A stretch of DNA of 20,504 nt, taken from IMG/VR virus record IMGVR_UViG_3300001589_000032, positions 24,703-45,206 of that record. One strand, written 5' to 3'. The notes under the pieces are model-generated. The model was not told the DNA's origin and did no database searches. It worked only from the letters and a program-made list of their open reading frames with translations. This document shows, piece after piece, positions 4,957-20,504 of the stretch (its first letter is position 1; the number at the start of each line of letters is the position of its first letter). Both the position numbers and the translations under genes were made by a program. The DNA is from a virus.

Positions 4957-5033
4957 GCGTTCTTAGCTCAGCTGGATAGAGCAACGGCCTTCTAAGCCGT
5001 AGGTCGGAGGTTCGAATCCTCCAGGACGCGCCA
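4957..5033 (+). tRNA. tRNA-Arg (anticodon TCT)
   Basis: A full 77-base cloverleaf with encoded CCA. Acceptor GCGTTCT pairs with AGGACGC; D stem GCTC/GAGC; anticodon stem ACGGC/GCCGT around loop CTTCTAA, giving anticodon TCT; T arm GGAGG TTCGAAT CCTCC; discriminator G. It reads AGA, which is visibly common among Arg codons in this AT-rich window. It lies between two genes on the same strand and presumably needs processing from the operon transcript. Confidence 0.96.
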
Positions 5034-14997: not shown

Positions 14998-15005
14998 TAT
15001 AAATA
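14998..15005 (+). promoter_or_regulatory. T4-type late promoter box (TATAAATA)
   Basis: An exact TATAAATA, the T4 late promoter -10 recognised by the gp55 sigma factor, 70 bases upstream of the gene at 15075. Two other exact copies in the window lie inside coding sequence, and this is the only one in an intergenic gap at the head of a gene block. It fits late expression of a virion-related cassette. Requires that the phage encodes gp55, which is not in view. Confidence 0.6.
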
Positions 15006-15074: not shown

Positions 15075-16448
15075 ATGAAAAGCTTAAGATATTTCGAACA
15101 AATCGAAGAACTTCAAGAAGCCGTAAAGCTAACTCCATCCGAATTGTTAAAACCAAATGCTAATACTGGTATAGACAGAATAGATATTTTAGCACGTCTT
15201 ATAAAAGACGGAAAGCCCCTTGAATTGGCTAAAGGCGGAGTATTTAAAGTAACTGATATAGAAAATGCTATAACTTCAATTGAAATATTCAAAAAACTAA
15301 AAAAACCCTTTACTCTCATAGGTGGCGATAAAATGATAAGCTCTTCCGATCTAGGAAAGAGTAAAGTATTTGGAGGTGGAGGTGGAGCTGGCGGCGGAAC
15401 TCTCAATACTAAAATCACAGAATCTCATCAATGTGTTATGTGTCAAGCTATGTTAGACAACGGAATGCAAGACGAAGAATTCTTTATGAATCACAATATT
15501 CTTAAAGCTGCATATAATAGAGTTTATGTCGATGCTACTTTAGATGAAGTATTATCAGTCGAAGATGGATGGTTCCATTCATCATATGAATCCGCAGTAA
15601 TTCTTATTAAAAACGGTTACATAAATAAGTCGCAGACATTTCATAGAGCAAGTAAATTAATGAATACAGTATATGCAATGAAGAATGTCGCATATAAAAA
15701 TTCTGATCAAAAACCTGTTAAAGATGATAAGTGGAACCCTGGAGATATCTGGGCCGTTAATAAAAGCTATAAATTGTCAACTCTTAGCACCGAAAGTATC
15801 GCAGCTTATAATAAAGCATTGTTACAAGCATTTGTTGATAGAGACTTGGTCGGAATATCATTAAAGCTTGTTAAGAAAACTGCTAAAGCTAAAGAGTACA
15901 ATATTAAATTACCGCCTGATACTGACGACCATAAGATAAAAACTATAATGTTCCAAGGAGAACTTAGAGGAACCTTTTGGTCTAATAAAGGTGCTACTGT
16001 TATATTTGACGCTGGTAAGCTTGACCTAAGGGCTGGATCTGCTGGAGGAGCTATTAAAGCAGAAATCAGAATGAAAACATCGAGAGGCGGCGGTGCCGGA
16101 TACGGAATTATGGCAGAAGGTATAAAGTCGGTTTTTGGAAAGAAAATACCCGACAATAAAGTCATTAATAAAATAGCTAAGAGTATTCTTAAAAAAGATA
16201 AAAGATCTATTAAAATATTTTATGAAATGTATAACAATTTTTATAAAAATGATTCATATGAAAACTTTGAAAAAGAATTGTTATTAAAAGACGTTTATTG
16301 GATAGGTTCAAAGCTAGCGTGTTTATATGTCTTATATTACGTTGATAAAAACAGCGGCACTAAAGCAAATCGTTGGATAACTAAAATTATAAACTATGCG
16401 GGATCTAAATCAGAAGATTCTAGCGCGTACGTGAAGGTATATCAATAA
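15075..16448 (+). CDS. Tagged phage protein with possible PD-(D/E)XK nuclease core
   Basis: A 457-residue protein. The N-terminus MKSLRYFEQIEELQE followed by A16 resembles a T4 capsid-targeting peptide ending in L-x-E|A. Further on are a Gly-rich linker (99-108, FGGGGGAGGG) and C120-x-x-C123. WNPGDIWAV (220-228) followed about 35 residues later by VGISLKLVKK (259-268) resembles the D...(S/E)-x-K pattern of PD-(D/E)XK nucleases, with D224 and K264 as candidate residues. Similar large unnamed proteins with a P-x-D-I-W and G-I-S-L-K pair occur in other large phages as I remember them. Both the nuclease and the packaging ideas are inference. The ribosome site is weak (AGGG at 12 bases), and the stop overlaps the next start. 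Confidence 0.55.
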   Translation: MKSLRYFEQIEELQEAVKLTPSELLKPNANTGIDRIDILARLIKDGKPLELAKGGVFKVTDIENAITSIEIFKKLKKPFTLIGGDKMISSSDLGKSKVFGGGGGAGGGTLNTKITESHQCVMCQAMLDNGMQDEEFFMNHNILKAAYNRVYVDATLDEVLSVEDGWFHSSYESAVILIKNGYINKSQTFHRASKLMNTVYAMKNVAYKNSDQKPVKDDKWNPGDIWAVNKSYKLSTLSTESIAAYNKALLQAFVDRDLVGISLKLVKKTAKAKEYNIKLPPDTDDHKIKTIMFQGELRGTFWSNKGATVIFDAGKLDLRAGSAGGAIKAEIRMKTSRGGGAGYGIMAEGIKSVFGKKIPDNKVINKIAKSILKKDKRSIKIFYEMYNNFYKNDSYENFEKELLLKDVYWIGSKLACLYVLYYVDKNSGTKANRWITKIINYAGSKSEDSSAYVKVYQ

Positions 16449-17713
16449 TGAAATCAAATTTGACGAAAGTTATAAAATCATTTAAAAATCAATTATCGGA
16501 GGCCGCAGGTAAGAACACTCATATGATTCATATTGAGGATCTTATTCTTGACGGTGGAGTTAAGGGGGCGCGCCAAGCTATCCTCGCGCTTAGGTCGTTG
16601 CGAGATATGTTATCGGGTAATGCAAAATCTGCAGTAGACGTTACCGTAAAATGGGACGGTGCCCCCGCCGTATTTGCTGGAGAAGATCCAAGAGATGGAC
16701 AATTCTTTGTTGCTAAAAAAGGAATCTTTAATTCTAATCCTAAGGTATATAAATCTCATGCAGATATTGATGCTGATACTTCTGGAGATCTTTCTAAAAA
16801 ATTAAAAATGGCCTTTGATTATTTACAGCCTTTAGGAATTAAAGGCGTTATACAAGGTGACTTCATGTTTGATAAGTCTGACCTCAAAACTGAAAATATT
16901 GGTGGAGTAAAGCACATAGTATTTCATCCTAATACAATCGCTTATGCAGTTCCAACATCAACTGCATTAGCAAAAGAAATTTCAAGAGCTAAGATCGGTA
17001 TCGTATGGCACACGGTTTATAACGGTGGTACATTTGAAACAATGAGAGCTGAGTTTGGCAGATCAATAGTCACTAAACTTAAACCGTCGAAAGATGTTTG
17101 GATGCAGGATGCAACACTAGATGATCTTTCCGGAACAGCAACATTAACAAAACAAGAAACAGATGAGCTTAATAAAAAGTTGTCTGATGCTGGTAAAATG
17201 TTTAAAAAGATATCAGGTTCTACGCTGAAAGAATTAGAATCTAACAGGGAATTAAACTTACTTATTAACGTTTATAATAACACTAAAGTGAGATCAGGGC
17301 AGAGAATTACCGATACTAAGAAGCATGCAACAGGATTAGTAATGTGGGTAAATACTAGATACCAAAAAGAAATTGATAAGAGAAGCAGTCAAAAAGGTAA
17401 AGATATTCAAATAGTAAAACGTGATCAATTATTACAATTTTTTAGCAAATCTAACATAAAAAGTTTACAAAATGTGTTCGATTTACAAAATTTAGTTGTG
17501 GATAGCAAATTAATTATTATAAATAAACTAAACAGACTAAGTAAAATTGGTACGTTTGTGAAGACTAAGTCCGGATTTAAAGTGACCAACCCTGAGGGTT
17601 TTGTTGCTATAGATCGTATGGAAGGTGGAGCAGTAAAGCTTGTTGATAGATTAGAATTTTCTACTAATAACTTCAGCAAAGATATTATAAAAGGTTGGGA
17701 TAATCCTAACTGA
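16448..17713 (+). CDS. Ligase/nucleotidyltransferase-like protein (KWDG motif; DUF6267-like)
   Basis: A 421-residue protein. After MKSNLTKV an embedded tag-like IKSFKNQLSE-A (9-19) with L-S-E|A is seen. The body begins THMIHIEDLILDGG, then TVKWDGAPAVFAG at 66-78, where K68-W-D-G has the form of the nucleotide-accepting motif I (K-x-D-G) of DNA/RNA ligases and capping enzymes; VIQGDFMF at 134-141 could be motif III and IVWHTVYNGG a motif IV-like strand. Marine T4-like phages commonly encode this protein, which I recall as DUF6267; its function is not established. A covalent nucleotidyltransferase is a reasonable hypothesis. The C-terminal third is helical with no recognised domain. Confidence 0.6.
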   Translation: MKSNLTKVIKSFKNQLSEAAGKNTHMIHIEDLILDGGVKGARQAILALRSLRDMLSGNAKSAVDVTVKWDGAPAVFAGEDPRDGQFFVAKKGIFNSNPKVYKSHADIDADTSGDLSKKLKMAFDYLQPLGIKGVIQGDFMFDKSDLKTENIGGVKHIVFHPNTIAYAVPTSTALAKEISRAKIGIVWHTVYNGGTFETMRAEFGRSIVTKLKPSKDVWMQDATLDDLSGTATLTKQETDELNKKLSDAGKMFKKISGSTLKELESNRELNLLINVYNNTKVRSGQRITDTKKHATGLVMWVNTRYQKEIDKRSSQKGKDIQIVKRDQLLQFFSKSNIKSLQNVFDLQNLVVDSKLIIINKLNRLSKIGTFVKTKSGFKVTNPEGFVAIDRMEGGAVKLVDRLEFSTNNFSKDIIKGWDNPN

Positions 17714-17735
17714 TATGGGGATACCGAGGATAACA

Positions 17736-18119
17736 ATGAAATCGTTTAAAGAACACGACGCAGATCTAACTAATGAAACCGTAGACTTTTCGGAGGCTAT
17801 GTCATTAGCACACAGAATGAAAATGAAAGCTTCATTTCGCAAGAACAAAGCAAAGATCGCACTTGGTAAAAAGAAAGCTGCGAAAAAACTTGCCTCCCCA
17901 GAAAAACTTAAATCCCGTGCCAATAAGGCAGCCAGGGAATTCCTAATCAAAAAAATGTTAAAAGGCAAAAGTAAAGCTGATCTTTCTTTTGCAGCACGTG
18001 CTGGTATCGAAAAAAAGTTAGCCAATAAGAAAGGAATGATTTCTAAAATCGCTAAGAAAATGTTACCAGGAATTAAGAAAAAAGACAGAGCAAAATTAAA
18101 AGATAAAGGTGAGAAGTAA
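17736..18119 (+). CDS. Highly basic tagged protein
   Basis: A 127-residue protein. ATG 17736 is chosen because GAGG lies eight bases upstream; the ATG at 17715 has no such site and would put seven residues before the MKSFKEHDADL tag. After DFSE|A at 18-21, nearly a third of the remainder is Lys/Arg in helical, Ala/Lys-rich repeats (KKKAAKKLA, ARAGIEKKLANKK, KKMLPGIKKKDR). A DNA-binding or core-filling internal protein is likely by charge, comparable in kind to T4 internal proteins. No enzyme motif. Confidence 0.6.
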   Translation: MKSFKEHDADLTNETVDFSEAMSLAHRMKMKASFRKNKAKIALGKKKAAKKLASPEKLKSRANKAAREFLIKKMLKGKSKADLSFAARAGIEKKLANKKGMISKIAKKMLPGIKKKDRAKLKDKGEK

Positions 18120-19307
18120 ATGGAATTTAAGAGTTTTAGTCAATATTTAAGCGAGGCAAAGGGCGAAGTCTATTTCGTCTTTGGTAGGTTTAATCCGCCA
18201 ACACCAGGTCATGCAAAGTTATTTGACAAATTAAAGAAAACCGCAGGAAGTAATCCGTATAGAGTATATGCTTCAAAATCACAAGACGCTAAAAAGAATC
18301 CGTTAACATTTAAAGATAAAATTAAATTTTTGCGCAAAATGTTTCCAAAACACGCAAGAAGCATTATGGCGGATAGCGATGTAAGAACAGCATTAGACAT
18401 TTGTGTTAAGTTATATAAGCAAGGTTTTACATCGGTTACAATGGTTGCTGGTTCAGACAGACTAAAAGAATTTGAAGTGCTTTTAAATAAGTATAATGGT
18501 GTAGATTCAAGACACGGCTTTTATAATTTTGAAAATGAAATAAAAGTAGTTTCTGCAGGAGAAAGAGATCCAGAAGCTGAAGGTGTTAAAGGAATGTCTG
18601 CTTCTAAACTTAGAGCTTTAGTTGCTGCAGGTGATCTTCAAGGCTTTGCAGATGCATCGTTAGAAATTCCAGGTGACGGAATACAAACTCTATACTATGC
18701 TATAAGAAAAGGCATGGGCCTTAAAAAAGAATCTGCTAGAAAGCATACACAACTAGAACCTGTATCAGAGAAAAGAGAAAAGTTTGTAAAAGGTAATCTG
18801 TTTAAGGAAGGTGACGAAGTCGTTTTAAAAGAAACAAATCAGGTTGGTGTTATTCAAAGGTGCGGTACTAACTTTTTAGTAGTTGAATTTGGAGAATGGA
18901 AGAAGCGCGTTTGGTTGGATGATGTAGAGCATTTAGAAGAAAAGAAATATTCTGATATGGATGCCAAACAAAAAGCAGCACATAATAAGCCAAGACCTAA
19001 TGCTCCTGAAAGCGATCATACAAAAGATTTTAAAAAGAAGTTTGGAGAAATGAAAAGCTTCTCTCAGTCTTTAGAAGAAGCTGATGCAAAGAAAGCACTT
19101 CAAAATAAAGCAGATAAAACAAAAATGCCATACGGCATATTAAAAAAAGTATTCGATAGAGGATATGCAGCTTGGAGTTCAAGTCATAGACCTGGAACAA
19201 ATCCAACACAGTGGGGATTAGCAAGAGTTAATTCGTTCGCGACAAAATCAAAAGGAACATGGGGCGGGGCTGATAAAGACCTAGCCGCTAAAGTAAGGGG
19301 AAGTTAA
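18120..19307 (+). CDS. Nucleotidyltransferase fused to DUF5824-like domain, with two tag sequences
   Basis: A 395-residue fusion. Residues 1-13 (MEFKSFSQYLSE-A) are tag-like. From 16, VYFVFGRFNPPTPGH (TPGH at 28-31 in place of HxGH), VAGSDR at 109-114 and SASKLR at 160-165 define a cytidylyltransferase-like nucleotidyltransferase of the NMN-adenylyltransferase type. Residues 222-275 look like an SH3-like barrel (FKEGDEVVLKETNQVGVIQR, then a W-x-D strand). M311 starts a second tag, MKSFSQSLEEA, preceded by GGAGAA. The last 60 residues (MPYGILKKVFDRGYAAW, SHRPGTNPTQWGLARVNSF) match what I recall as DUF5824. It may yield a separate 85-residue product from M311 or by cleavage after E320. Confidence 0.75.
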   Translation: MEFKSFSQYLSEAKGEVYFVFGRFNPPTPGHAKLFDKLKKTAGSNPYRVYASKSQDAKKNPLTFKDKIKFLRKMFPKHARSIMADSDVRTALDICVKLYKQGFTSVTMVAGSDRLKEFEVLLNKYNGVDSRHGFYNFENEIKVVSAGERDPEAEGVKGMSASKLRALVAAGDLQGFADASLEIPGDGIQTLYYAIRKGMGLKKESARKHTQLEPVSEKREKFVKGNLFKEGDEVVLKETNQVGVIQRCGTNFLVVEFGEWKKRVWLDDVEHLEEKKYSDMDAKQKAAHNKPRPNAPESDHTKDFKKKFGEMKSFSQSLEEADAKKALQNKADKTKMPYGILKKVFDRGYAAWSSSHRPGTNPTQWGLARVNSFATKSKGTWGGADKDLAAKVRGS

Positions 19308-19558
19308 TGAAAACGTTTAAAGAAATAAGAGAAAGCCAAACAATTTTAGAAAGAAATTTTAAAGTTGCGTTGGATTTTGACATGGGTGATCCAAGAGAAT
19401 ACGCTGATGATTGGGAATCTGATGGAGTTTATATCGATACTTGGGACAAGAGAGAAAACGAACTTGTTGTCATGAGTAGAGATAAAAGAGGTTTAGAAAA
19501 ATGGTTGGTTGACGTATATGGGTTATCTAAAAAAGAAGTAAGAGGAATGGTAAAATGA
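19307..19558 (+). CDS. Small tagged hypothetical protein
   Basis: An 83-residue acidic protein starting MKTFKEIRESQTILE, with I-L-E at 13-15 followed by R rather than A. The body (FKVALDFDMGDPREY, then a VYIDTWD strand and a KRGLEKWLVDVYGL helix) looks like a small alpha/beta domain. Unknown function. It starts in TAATG with the previous stop and overlaps the next gene by four bases. Confidence 0.6.
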   Translation: MKTFKEIRESQTILERNFKVALDFDMGDPREYADDWESDGVYIDTWDKRENELVVMSRDKRGLEKWLVDVYGLSKKEVRGMVK

Positions 19559-20013
19559 AAAATTTTAAAGAATTGAGAACTAACTATAACACTCATTCTG
19601 AATCGGTTAACGAAAATTGGATGGATGACGAGCCTTATAGTAAAAAGGCTGCATCTGATTTAATCAGAACTGCAAAAAAATCTGTAAGTAAACTTAAAAC
19701 GGAAGATGATTTTAATGATTGGATGTCAGATACTGGATATACTATTATTAAAAAATATCACAAACCAGGCCCTTTTCATAAAGGCGTAAAGACAGATTTC
19801 TTTAAAGATTCCGGTAGTGATTTATTTGCACGATACAAGAAAGAGTTATTAAAAGCATTAAGGCTTAAATTTGAAAACGTTGAAGAATCCTCAGCTTCAT
19901 GGGCAAAGTCACTAGAAGATATTGCTAAGAAAAAGCAATTAGATAAAATATCTGATAAAGACAAAAAGACGTTAATGAAAATTGCTGCTATGATGGCCAA
20001 GGAAAAAAAGTAA
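19555..20013 (+). CDS. Tagged hypothetical protein with Lys-rich C-terminus
   Basis: A 152-residue protein starting MKNFKELRTNYN. It has the tag-like start but no clear L-x-E|A near it. The centre is helical (SDLIRTAKKSVSKL, then FNDWMSDTGY), and the last 40 residues (SWAKSLEDIAKKKQLDKIS and a Met-rich helix) resemble a short tail that I recall in other marine phage proteins. Function unknown. It begins within the last codon and stop of the previous gene. Confidence 0.6.
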   Translation: MKNFKELRTNYNTHSESVNENWMDDEPYSKKAASDLIRTAKKSVSKLKTEDDFNDWMSDTGYTIIKKYHKPGPFHKGVKTDFFKDSGSDLFARYKKELLKALRLKFENVEESSASWAKSLEDIAKKKQLDKISDKDKKTLMKIAAMMAKEKK

Positions 20014-20014
20014 G

Positions 20015-20302
20015 ATGAATACTTTCCATGAAATTTTAAGAAGACAAAAGGCTGCTACCGAGTCTCTTCAGAATGCCAAGGATAAAAAGCTTTCAGAATC
20101 TGCTATGAGCGAAGGTCCATTAGTAATGTCTGATTCAGATATATTAGATACTATCTGGAAGAAAGTAAAACCAGAGTTACAAAAGGATATGTCTAAAGGT
20201 AAATTAGAAGTAGTTAACAACCTAGCTCGTATTGCTAAGTTTAAAATTACAAAGGACGGCCAAGCAAAAGGTAAAACATACAGGTACGACTTAAAGAAAT
20301 GA
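20015..20302 (+). CDS. Small tagged hypothetical protein
   Basis: A 95-residue protein starting MNTFHEILRRQKAA. Possible cleavage points are LSE|S at 26-28 and MSE|G a few residues later, which would release the C-terminal two-thirds. The remainder (PLVMSDSDILDTIWKKVKPE and a basic strand pair with KGKTYRYDLKK) is a compact soluble domain. Not recognised. It overlaps the last gene by ATGA. Confidence 0.55.
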   Translation: MNTFHEILRRQKAATESLQNAKDKKLSESAMSEGPLVMSDSDILDTIWKKVKPELQKDMSKGKLEVVNNLARIAKFKITKDGQAKGKTYRYDLKK

Positions 20303-20504
20303 AAACCTTTGCGGAACATTCTTTATATGAACAGGATCTGGATGAGGCCTATAACCTTATTTTACCTGTCGCTTTAAAGATTGGTAAGGAAATAGTAAAA
20401 CTAGGCGTACCTAAGCTAAGCTTAAAAGCTGCTGTAAAAGGAACAGTAATTTATAGTATTGCAAAAAAATATGATTTAACCGCAATAATTGAAATACAAA
20501 AGTT
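20299..20504 (+). CDS. Tagged protein, N-terminal part (runs off the window)
   Basis: Sixty-eight codons are visible. The start MKTFAEHSLYEQDLDE is followed by A17, giving L-D-E|A, one of the clearest matches in the cassette. Next comes a hydrophobic/basic stretch (YNLILPVALKIGKEIVKLG, then KAAVKGTVIYSIAKKYDL) that may be an amphipathic or membrane-interacting helix pair. The 3' end is missing, so neither length nor function can be given. Confidence 0.55.
   Translation, partial: MKTFAEHSLYEQDLDEAYNLILPVALKIGKEIVKLGVPKLSLKAAVKGTVIYSIAKKYDLTAIIEIQK

Follow-up and report, generated by a model that had tools for sequence, protein, structure and literature searches.

A shared N-terminal tag resembling T4 capsid targeting sequences marks a probably late gene cassette in a marine T4-like phage and suggests enzyme cargo

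A tagged gene cassette between helicase and primase

Here we describe eight consecutive genes at the downstream end of a 20,504-nucleotide stretch of virus DNA (the window; 24703-45206 of the 45,477-base IMG/VR record IMGVR_UViG_3300001589_000032, G+C content ~35%), all of which carry at or near the N-terminus a short peptide (the tag) resembling the capsid targeting sequence (CTS) of the phage T4 internal proteins (IPs; Table 1). Along the record, a T4-like head module (portal, gp67-like, gp21, gp22 and gp23 genes) is followed by replication genes; the portal, gp67-like, gp22 and gp23 assignments are our own reading of sequence matches, while the predicted gp21 was separately confirmed (see below). 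Within the window, the cassette is preceded by ~3 kb that hold mostly small genes and, before these, by genes that we read as UvsX and a gp41-like helicase. Among named phages, Phage C48C1, the Methylophilales phage Melnitz group and Pelagibacter phage HTVC008M are best placed, all of them Kyanoviridae, and homologous genes sit between a gp41-type helicase and a gp61-type primase in HTVC008M, Melnitz, S-SM1 and S-SZBM1.

The preliminary description of this DNA had reported an MK(S/T/N)FKE-like N-terminal peptide in eight consecutive genes, and all eight reading frames are indeed present, with the third judged from its relatives to start at 17736 rather than 17715. The peptide is exact in genes 3, 5 and 6 and near-exact in genes 8 (MKTFAE) and 7 (MNTFHE); in gene 4 (MEFKSFSQYLSEA) KSF begins at residue 4 and in gene 2 (MKSNLTKVIKSFKNQLSEA) at residue 10, and the weakest tag of the eight is that of gene 1 (MKSLRYFEQIEELQEA). 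A second element, a site of the form (L/F)xE↓A (where ↓ marks the predicted cut), was likewise found as described in five of the eight genes (LQE↓A, LSE↓A, FSE↓A, LSE↓A and LDE↓A in genes 1, 2, 3, 4 and 8), with weaker sites in genes 5 (ILE↓R) and 7 (LSE↓S) and VNE↓N in gene 6; the stretch up to this E is 12 to 28 residues long. The drifted tags are more regular in relatives (gene 1, MKSFLSLEPIREA; gene 2, MKSFKNQLSEA; gene 7, MKTFKEQSNLDEA): relatives of gene 1 mostly begin MKSFLS or MKNFK-like, many relatives of gene 2 begin MKSFKNQLSEA, and since these starts are regular, genes 1 and 2 look like drifted copies of one tag. In the 16 aligned sequences of gene 1, the F and E are conserved while the spacing between them varies. 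The DUF6267 tag of gene 2 (16448-16501) is shifted eight residues inward (MKSNLTKVIKSFKNQ) in the window and in one relative (L011) as compared with the other aligned relatives.

Table 1. Promoter, genes and N-terminal tags of the cassette, in window coordinates (↓, predicted cut site).
Feature	Position	Strand	Remarks
T4-type late promoter box TATAAATA	14998..15005	+	gap 5′ of cassette
Gene 1, PHROG_1462 protein, 457 aa	15075..16448	+	PHROG match 1.4e-32
Tag of gene 1, MKSLRYFEQIEELQE↓A	15075..15119	+	capsid-targeting-like; F7 and E15 invariant in 16 aligned sequences
Gene 2, DUF6267 (PF19782), KWDG motif	16448..17713	+	RNA-ligase-like fold suggested
Tag of gene 2, MKSNLTKVIKSFKNQLSE↓A	16448..16501	+	8 residues longer than in aligned relatives
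Gene 3, very basic protein, 127 aa	17736..18119	+	reading frame
Tag of gene 3, MKSFKEHDADLTNETVDFSE↓A	17736..17795	+	
Gene 4, HxGH nucleotidyltransferase (cytidylyltransferase/NMNAT-like) with C-terminal DUF5824	18120..19307	+	profile matches
Tag of gene 4, MEFKSFSQYLSE↓A	18120..18155	+	best match of the contig to T4 IPIII
Gene 5, 83 aa, function not assigned	19307..19558	+	
Tag of gene 5, MKTFKEIRESQTILE↓R	19307..19351	+	first six residues as in T4 IPI
Gene 6, 152 aa, function not assigned	19555..20013	+	no match in phage records
Tag of gene 6, MKNFKELRTNYNTHSESVNE↓N	19555..19614	+	
Gene 7, 95 aa, function not assigned	20015..20302	+	
Tag of gene 7, MNTFHEILRRQKAATESLQNAKDKKLSE↓S	20015..20098	+	cut site uncertain; relatives e.g. 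MKTFKEQSNLDE↓AP
Gene 8	20299..20504	+	continues beyond window to contig end; contig holds 159 aa, some unread bases
Tag of gene 8, MKTFAEHSLYEQDLDE↓A	20299..20346	+	

The tag is a property of the cassette and is shared by unrelated proteins

When the 67 called genes of the contig were ranked by their match (BLOSUM62) to the T4 IPIII peptide, a query taken untuned from the preliminary description, seven of the eight cassette genes fell within the top eight (hypergeometric p 7e-8; Mann–Whitney p 4e-6). A strict regular expression, FxxFLxE within the first 30 residues, was enriched in Melnitz (11/217 genes, 3.2 expected) and in cyanophage S-CREM2 (13/219, 3.9 expected) and showed no enrichment in the contig itself (3/67, 2.2 expected) or in HTVC008M (6/198, 3.9 expected). 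Many cassette tags are extended and fall outside this expression, and we therefore relied on the T4-query scores, on the position of tagged genes and on a reciprocal matrix.

Gene position was assessed in 80 IMG/VR loci, the best of 340, each surrounding a DUF6267 homologue; of 1675 genes called there, 1656 start within their locus and were scored. Genes of these loci, of our contig, of a 128-kb relative (G001) and of T4 came from a simple gene caller of our own. A looser expression, composed after the tags had been seen, matches 298 of the 1656 genes (18%) as against 0.82% of 21,680 internal windows. Measured from the DUF6267 start, tagged genes number 0/229 at −10.5 to −4.5 kb, 7/385 at −4.5 to −1.5 kb, 34/98 at −1.5 to 0 kb, 118/153 at 0 to 1.5 kb, 67/117 at 1.5 to 3 kb, 50/167 at 3 to 4.5 kb, 12/158 at 4.5 to 6 kb and 10/266 farther downstream, and none of the 83 minus-strand genes is tagged. 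The tags are thus confined to the cassette. The same holds elsewhere: in the 128-kb relative nine of 171 called genes match, seven of these between 48.7 and 59.6 kb, and with a T4 IPI heptamer as query the 18 best-scoring genes include 11 of the 18 from the interval (p 1e-8); in Melnitz the enrichment of the interval is weaker (p 0.003 to 0.017). Across two further sets of 80 loci, tags recur on DUF6267, the cytidylyltransferase and the first gene in both lineages, though not in every case, and overall the tag persists over three lineages (window-like, HTVC-like and Melnitz-like).

That one tag should stand on otherwise differing products, as had been proposed, is borne out by clustering: single linkage of the tag-free bodies (E 1e-3) splits the 298 tagged genes into 25 BLAST-unrelated families, of which 21 were kept; the other four (families 13, 14, 21 and 22) did not look like tags and were removed by eye, so that logo, P3 counts and matrix do not include them. 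Weighted by family, the tag reads K (0.89), T/S (0.74), F (0.88), K (0.54), E (0.68) and I/F/Y/H/L, where positions 1–3 (K/R; S, T, N, G, K or R; F/L) are forced by the expression in both logo and matrix, and the fifth-position E, the hydrophobic sixth position and P3 are not. At the first E[AGS] after the tag, P3 (two residues ahead of the E) is L/I/V/M with a family-weighted frequency of 0.73 in tagged genes (20 families) versus 0.35 in untagged upstream or minus-strand genes (37 families); the raw control value (253/400 untagged N-termini, 63%) is inflated by repeated families. The cleavage consensus of the T4 prohead protease gp21 is (L/I)xE, as the preliminary description also stated, and the P3 preference would fit it. 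Some relatives have, in place of the first cassette gene, a BLAST-unrelated gene with a tag of the same kind (MKSLKNYIYEANLQG; L052:8883-10004, family 6), suggesting exchange of cargo behind a constant tag.

Comparison with T4 internal proteins

The resemblance to T4 that had been noted extends to both T4 forms of the peptide, the compact one of IPIII and IPII (MKTYQEFIAE↓A) and the extended one of IPI (MKTFKEFTSTTTPVSTITEA), which we take to be cut after the E of MKTFKEFTSTTTPVSTITE↓A. It also holds in reverse. A six-position matrix built from the marine families alone, applied to 284 called T4 open reading frames, ranks ipI and gp61.1 first (16.9), followed by ipIII and ipII (11.8) and ndd.1 (11.7), with the next reading frame at 5.8. 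An N-terminal peptide of the kind by which T4-type CTS internal proteins are described (10–19 residues, with targeting residues 4 and 7) is thus present in the marine proteins; in T4, mutational mapping as summarized in the cited review assigns targeting mainly to residues 4 and 7 and processing to residues 8 and 10 (PMC9026906). At the two positions matching residues 4 and 7, F/L and I/F/Y/H/L form the marine consensus, and T4 residues 4, 7, 8 and 10 would correspond to the marine F, the hydrophobic residue and (L/I)xE.

T4 IPI, IPII and IPIII share with the marine proteins the start MKT(F/Y)(K/Q)EF, an (I)xE↓A site in compact and extended versions, differing bodies and a gp21 protease. They differ in that the T4 proteins are small, one of them being described in the cited passages as injected to block a restriction enzyme, whereas the marine cassette is a row of at least eight genes that includes enzymes and lies ~3 kb after the gp41 helicase gene. 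Among other systems, the T4 ADP-ribosyltransferase Alt is, by its annotation, likewise an enzyme that is carried in the capsid and enters together with the DNA, and a gp21 site (ITE-6) lies close to its N-terminus, but its start (MELITELFDE) does not match the marine tag (score −3.3). Ejection proteins of phiKZ and SPN3US are also described as losing propeptides to a prohead protease and leaving with the DNA, but these propeptides are often at least 100 residues long and are cut at another motif. These and the virion comparisons below draw on passages of PMC10665884, PMC9602691, PMC9964418, PMC3037559, PMC9146016, PMC3012670, PMC9026906 and PMC5694885.

Two T4 genes picked out by the marine matrix deserve mention. 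T4 gp61.1 (L272:18966-19130), which ties with ipI as best T4 match, begins MKTFKEFIKED, and its gene sits between T4 genes 61 and 41, the same interval as the marine cassette; we regard it as a candidate unrecognised internal protein. T4 ndd.1 (L274:47102-47317) begins MKSFKDVKVGEIF and, for all its high score, has VGE↓I rather than LxE↓A near its start.

Protease and late promoter

The preliminary description had named the lack of a gp21-type protease as something that would speak against packaging, and such a protease is encoded on the same contig, 35 kb upstream (G000:C1:4143-4787), with 51% identity to that of HTVC008M (E 5e-69) and a match to the PHROG head maturation protease phrog_207 (1.2e-78). 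It was found in three of the seven other records searched, the other four being fragments of 58–66 kb. Putative cut sites resembling those of the tags can be read in the gp23 sequences of Melnitz (FLSE↓A) and S-CREM2 (LLTE↓A) and in the gp21 sequences of HTVC008M (LIAE↓A), Melnitz (YITE↓A) and S-CREM2 (LLTE↓E), and LIE, ITE and LTE sites are named in the cited passages.

The exact late promoter box that had been reported in front of the cassette, TATAAATA, is present as well. By count it is not unusual, with four copies in the window and 3.9 expected, but its position is conserved: among 40 gene-1 homologues, nine of which were left out as their match begins beyond residue 12, the box lies at most 150 nt upstream of gene 1 in 31/31 loci with a readable start, versus 124 of 1518 plus-strand genes, which would fit late expression of the cassette.

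Tagged homologues in cyanophage virions

The virions of cyanophage S-CREM2 contain a cytidylyltransferase (gp154), an S-adenosylmethionine (SAM) hydrolase (gp6), a Cas9-annotated protein (gp12), a kinase (gp14) and the small proteins gp13, gp15 and gp155 (PMC10665884, Table 3). Five of these carry the FxxFLxE core, namely gp154 (MKNFSSFLTEADE), gp6 (MKDFDSFLEEFD), gp12 (…LRFASFMAEAAV), gp14 (MKRFDAFLTEEE) and gp13 (MKDLHSFLTEQD), while the starts of gp15 (MNFSEFNES) and gp155 (MSRFEELRT) are only loosely tag-like. Across the S-CREM2 proteome the core is found in five of 13 detected non-structural proteins (our own grouping) versus 6/167 undetected ones (p 3e-4), and in 2/39 other virion proteins; a T4-query score of at least 15 separates them similarly (5/13 versus 5/165, p 2e-4), and a rank test on marine hexamer-matrix scores gives p 0.001.

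Other cyanophages offer comparable cases. Of four N-termini compared from the 30-protein virion list of S-SZBM1, that of cytidylyltransferase 140 (MRFRQFIIE↓AV) is tagged, with no tag on 139, 136 or 90; the DUF6267 homologue of this phage, 141, is untagged (it begins M-AKNTHLEH) and lies outside the virion list. S-SM1 virions are reported to hold GC190 and GC15, and GC190 is tagged (MKKFSAFLNE↓A; start MKKFSAFLNEAE), while the S-SM1 DUF6267 protein is untagged. The S-CRM01 kinase, reported in virions (PMC10665884, introduction) and identified here by a 31.8% identity match, begins MISFDQFLSEKK with the tag MISFDQFLSE. Tag-like stretches also occur near the start of gp12-like proteins of S-H34 (GFSSFLKEAE) and S-B68 (GFSSFIAEAD) and at the start of a SAM-lyase-like protein of marine virus AG-345-L05 (MKTFKEFLEES); the S-H34 kinase (MRLSQFNENAE) and SAM lyase (MKNFEEFKDQA) have no compact site. 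Several N-termini are tagged, partly with the stretch lying shortly inside, in a cyanophage block that comprises the kinase, the Cas9-annotated phrog_3561 protein or a similar one, small proteins and, in some phages, the SAM lyase (L095:3837-13331, L277:5980-13699, L276:449-4173, L278:2489-6889).

Taken together, S-CREM2, S-SZBM1, S-SCSM1, S-SM1 and S-CRM01 have virion enzymes that include a homologous cytidylyltransferase, encoded in the same gp41–gp61 interval in S-SM1 and S-SZBM1, and the virion cytidylyltransferase/NMNAT, kinase, SAM hydrolase and Cas9-annotated protein are tagged where N-termini were compared, in S-CREM2, S-SZBM1, S-SM1 and S-CRM01; the S-SCSM1 enzyme is an NMNAT. They were published as virion-associated or possibly co-purified, and the cited passages make no mention of a tag.

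A probable cassette of capsid-targeted cargo

We consider it likely, and hold with good confidence, that the block is a late-expressed cassette of capsid-targeted cargo that is trimmed by gp21 and injected with the DNA, each product bearing a CTS of the T4 internal-protein kind: K-(T/S)-F-K-E-hydrophobic, a variable linker and (L/I/V/M/F)-x-E↓A. The packaging destination proposed in the preliminary description is thereby supported by the match to the T4 tag, by the gp21 gene on the contig and by the tagged homologues in the virions of relatives. The parts of this reading differ in strength: capsid targeting of the cassette products is very likely, gp21 trimming is likely, and injection into the host is, by analogy with T4, probable. 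The case for encapsidation comes through relatives, the tagged homologues in virions of S-CREM2, S-SZBM1 and S-SM1, and because relatives bearing the label are found in related particles, this virus probably delivers a ready-made enzyme set with its DNA.

Several observations weigh against this interpretation. The residue after the E is R, N or S in three of the eight window genes, the HTVC008M gp23 site reads FLGE↓I (from sequence), HTVC-like cytidylyltransferases are without the E site (that of HTVC008M begins MKTLKELLRKK), and the HTVC008M gp41–gp61 interval differs only marginally from the rest of the genome (p 0.02 to 0.26 depending on query and test). In S-CREM2 the rank test on T4-query scores gives only p 0.09 or 0.03 depending on the offset, the hexamer matrix at score 6 does not separate virion proteins (1/13 versus 3/167, p 0.26), its top gene, gp30, is not virion-detected, and gp17, 156, 160, 165, 174 and 176 are detected with no clear tag, as are the interval proteins 139 and 136 of S-SZBM1. 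All of the virion mass spectrometry comes from cyanophages rather than from this phage or its close relatives, the authors of two of the virion studies allow in the cited passages for co-purification, and those passages report no new N-terminus after the E.

Three other explanations are less probable. The tag might be a prohead-core docking peptide on assembly helpers that act in the producing cell and are not delivered. The cassette is probably late, gp21 itself has a similar xxE↓A N-terminus in HTVC008M (MKLITEELTDVQLIAE↓A), Melnitz (MKLIAEQIQEVEYITE↓A) and our contig (MKLISEYTDSNIECYTE↓A), and so do T4 gp22 and, less well, gp24. Yet cargo with a SAM lyase, kinases, a nucleotidyltransferase and a ligase-like protein does not readily suggest a role in assembly, tagged homologues are still present in finished virions, and the tag-bearing T4 IPI is described in the cited passages as injected, so that we regard the assembly-helper explanation as unlikely. 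An effect of translation initiation or codon usage, with A-rich first codons in an AT-rich and highly expressed late operon, finds some footing in the G+C content and in the A-rich (ATGAAATCGTTTAAAGAA-like) first codons, but predicts neither the E at the fifth tag position nor the distal (L/I)xE↓A; genes 4.5–10.5 kb upstream in the same genomes are untagged (0/229), many HTVC008M structural genes begin MA rather than MKSF, and the marine matrix picks out the T4 internal proteins, which together make such an effect highly improbable. We give equally little credence to functionless relics of local duplication, in which one start region was copied before several genes: neighbouring genes do have near-identical first codons, but the tag is kept over three lineages, its F and E being conserved in gene 1 while the distance between them changes, it matches a functional T4 peptide, and S-SZBM1 and S-SM1 have an untagged DUF6267 gene while the adjoining cytidylyltransferase keeps the tag.

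For the cargo cassette, the events may be pictured as follows. Late transcription of the gp55 type from TATAAATA would make the cargo together with the head proteins, the tag would dock each cargo protein on the gp22 scaffold core, and the phage's own gp21 protease would cut after the E of the tag. The mature proteins (nucleotidyltransferase, ligase-like DUF6267 protein, basic protein and others) would then remain with the DNA in the head and accompany it into the host.

Identity and possible roles of the cargo

The earlier labels of the cargo fared unevenly. Gene 1 had been called nuclease-like, for which we found no support, since no convincing match emerged from Pfam (none at E 0.1), NCBIfam (none at 0.01), PDB profiles (best E 0.09) or Foldseek (best E 1.0); its AlphaFold model has a mean pLDDT (predicted local distance difference test score) of 82, with residues 1–16 below 50. 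The very basic protein (gene 3) and the nucleotidyltransferase (gene 4) were as described, the latter by PF01467 (24.8 bits, cut-off 21) and phrog_3041 (2e-78), with NCBIfam TIGR00125 below its cut-off (16.7 versus 27.7) and no PDB sequence match at E 1; its motif we take to be HxGH.

Gene 2 belongs to DUF6267 (PF19782; 344.5 bits, cut-off 27), and its KWDGAP, PEGFVAID and VKLVDR are largely invariant; we take KWDGAP and the later motifs to be ligase-like. Its model (mean pLDDT 72.6, residues 365–421 mostly below 50) suggests an RNA-ligase-like fold: 28 of 50 VIA-align rows are RNA or DNA ligases, including T4 Rnl2, with a best Z of 6.9 and all below 8, the ligase rows being partly many entries of one enzyme and unrelated helical proteins also appearing at Z 6.0–6.3. 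No convincing PDB profile (best E 0.13) or Foldseek match (best E 0.17) was found for this protein. PHROG_455 covers the domains of genes 2 and 4 in one profile, and the two may thus be partners.

A tagged P-loop kinase (AAA_33/zeta-toxin-like) occurs in addition in related cassettes, and S-CREM2 gp6 matches the SAM lyases (PF23780, 2e-19), which suggests an anti-restriction role. The combination of ligase, kinase and nucleotidyltransferase suggests repair of RNA or nucleotides at entry, and authors of the cited cyanophage work speculate, in the passages used here, on synthesis of nicotinamide adenine dinucleotide (NAD) by the cytidylyltransferase/NMNAT. Our best guess is that, ahead of phage transcription, the cargo serves counter-defence and the repair of nucleotides, NAD or RNA. 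More broadly, and as a tentative proposal, marine Kyanoviridae may share a modular delivery at time zero, in which a T4-type capsid label on a changing kit (RNA-ligase-like protein, P-loop kinase, nucleotidyltransferase, SAM lyase, Cas9-annotated protein) would direct the loading of the kit into the head, where it would be trimmed; once injected, the kit would repair RNA or nucleotide pools and disable host defences ahead of all phage gene expression.

Implications and minor observations

The targeting mechanism is known from T4, and it is the enzyme cargo cassette in marine Kyanoviridae that looks new. A limited literature search, with subscription papers outside its coverage and a prior report thus possible, found no description of the tagged cassette among the papers listed; within the same coverage, the T4 review (PMC9026906) alone joined capsid targeting with cyanophages, and nothing was found on DUF6267. 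A simple sequence rule of this kind would explain the enzymes that recur in cyanophage virions and predicts, among the hypothetical proteins of ocean phages, those that are injected, so that the question of contaminant or cargo becomes directly testable on named proteins. DUF6267, PHROG_1462 and the packaged SAM lyases and kinases are candidate early-infection effectors.

Outside the cassette, the window carries a tRNA-Arg (tct) gene (4957-5033), and Melnitz likewise has a tRNA-Arg(tct). A tmRNA (SsrA) gene is annotated in the Melnitz phage record (L092:20985-21437).

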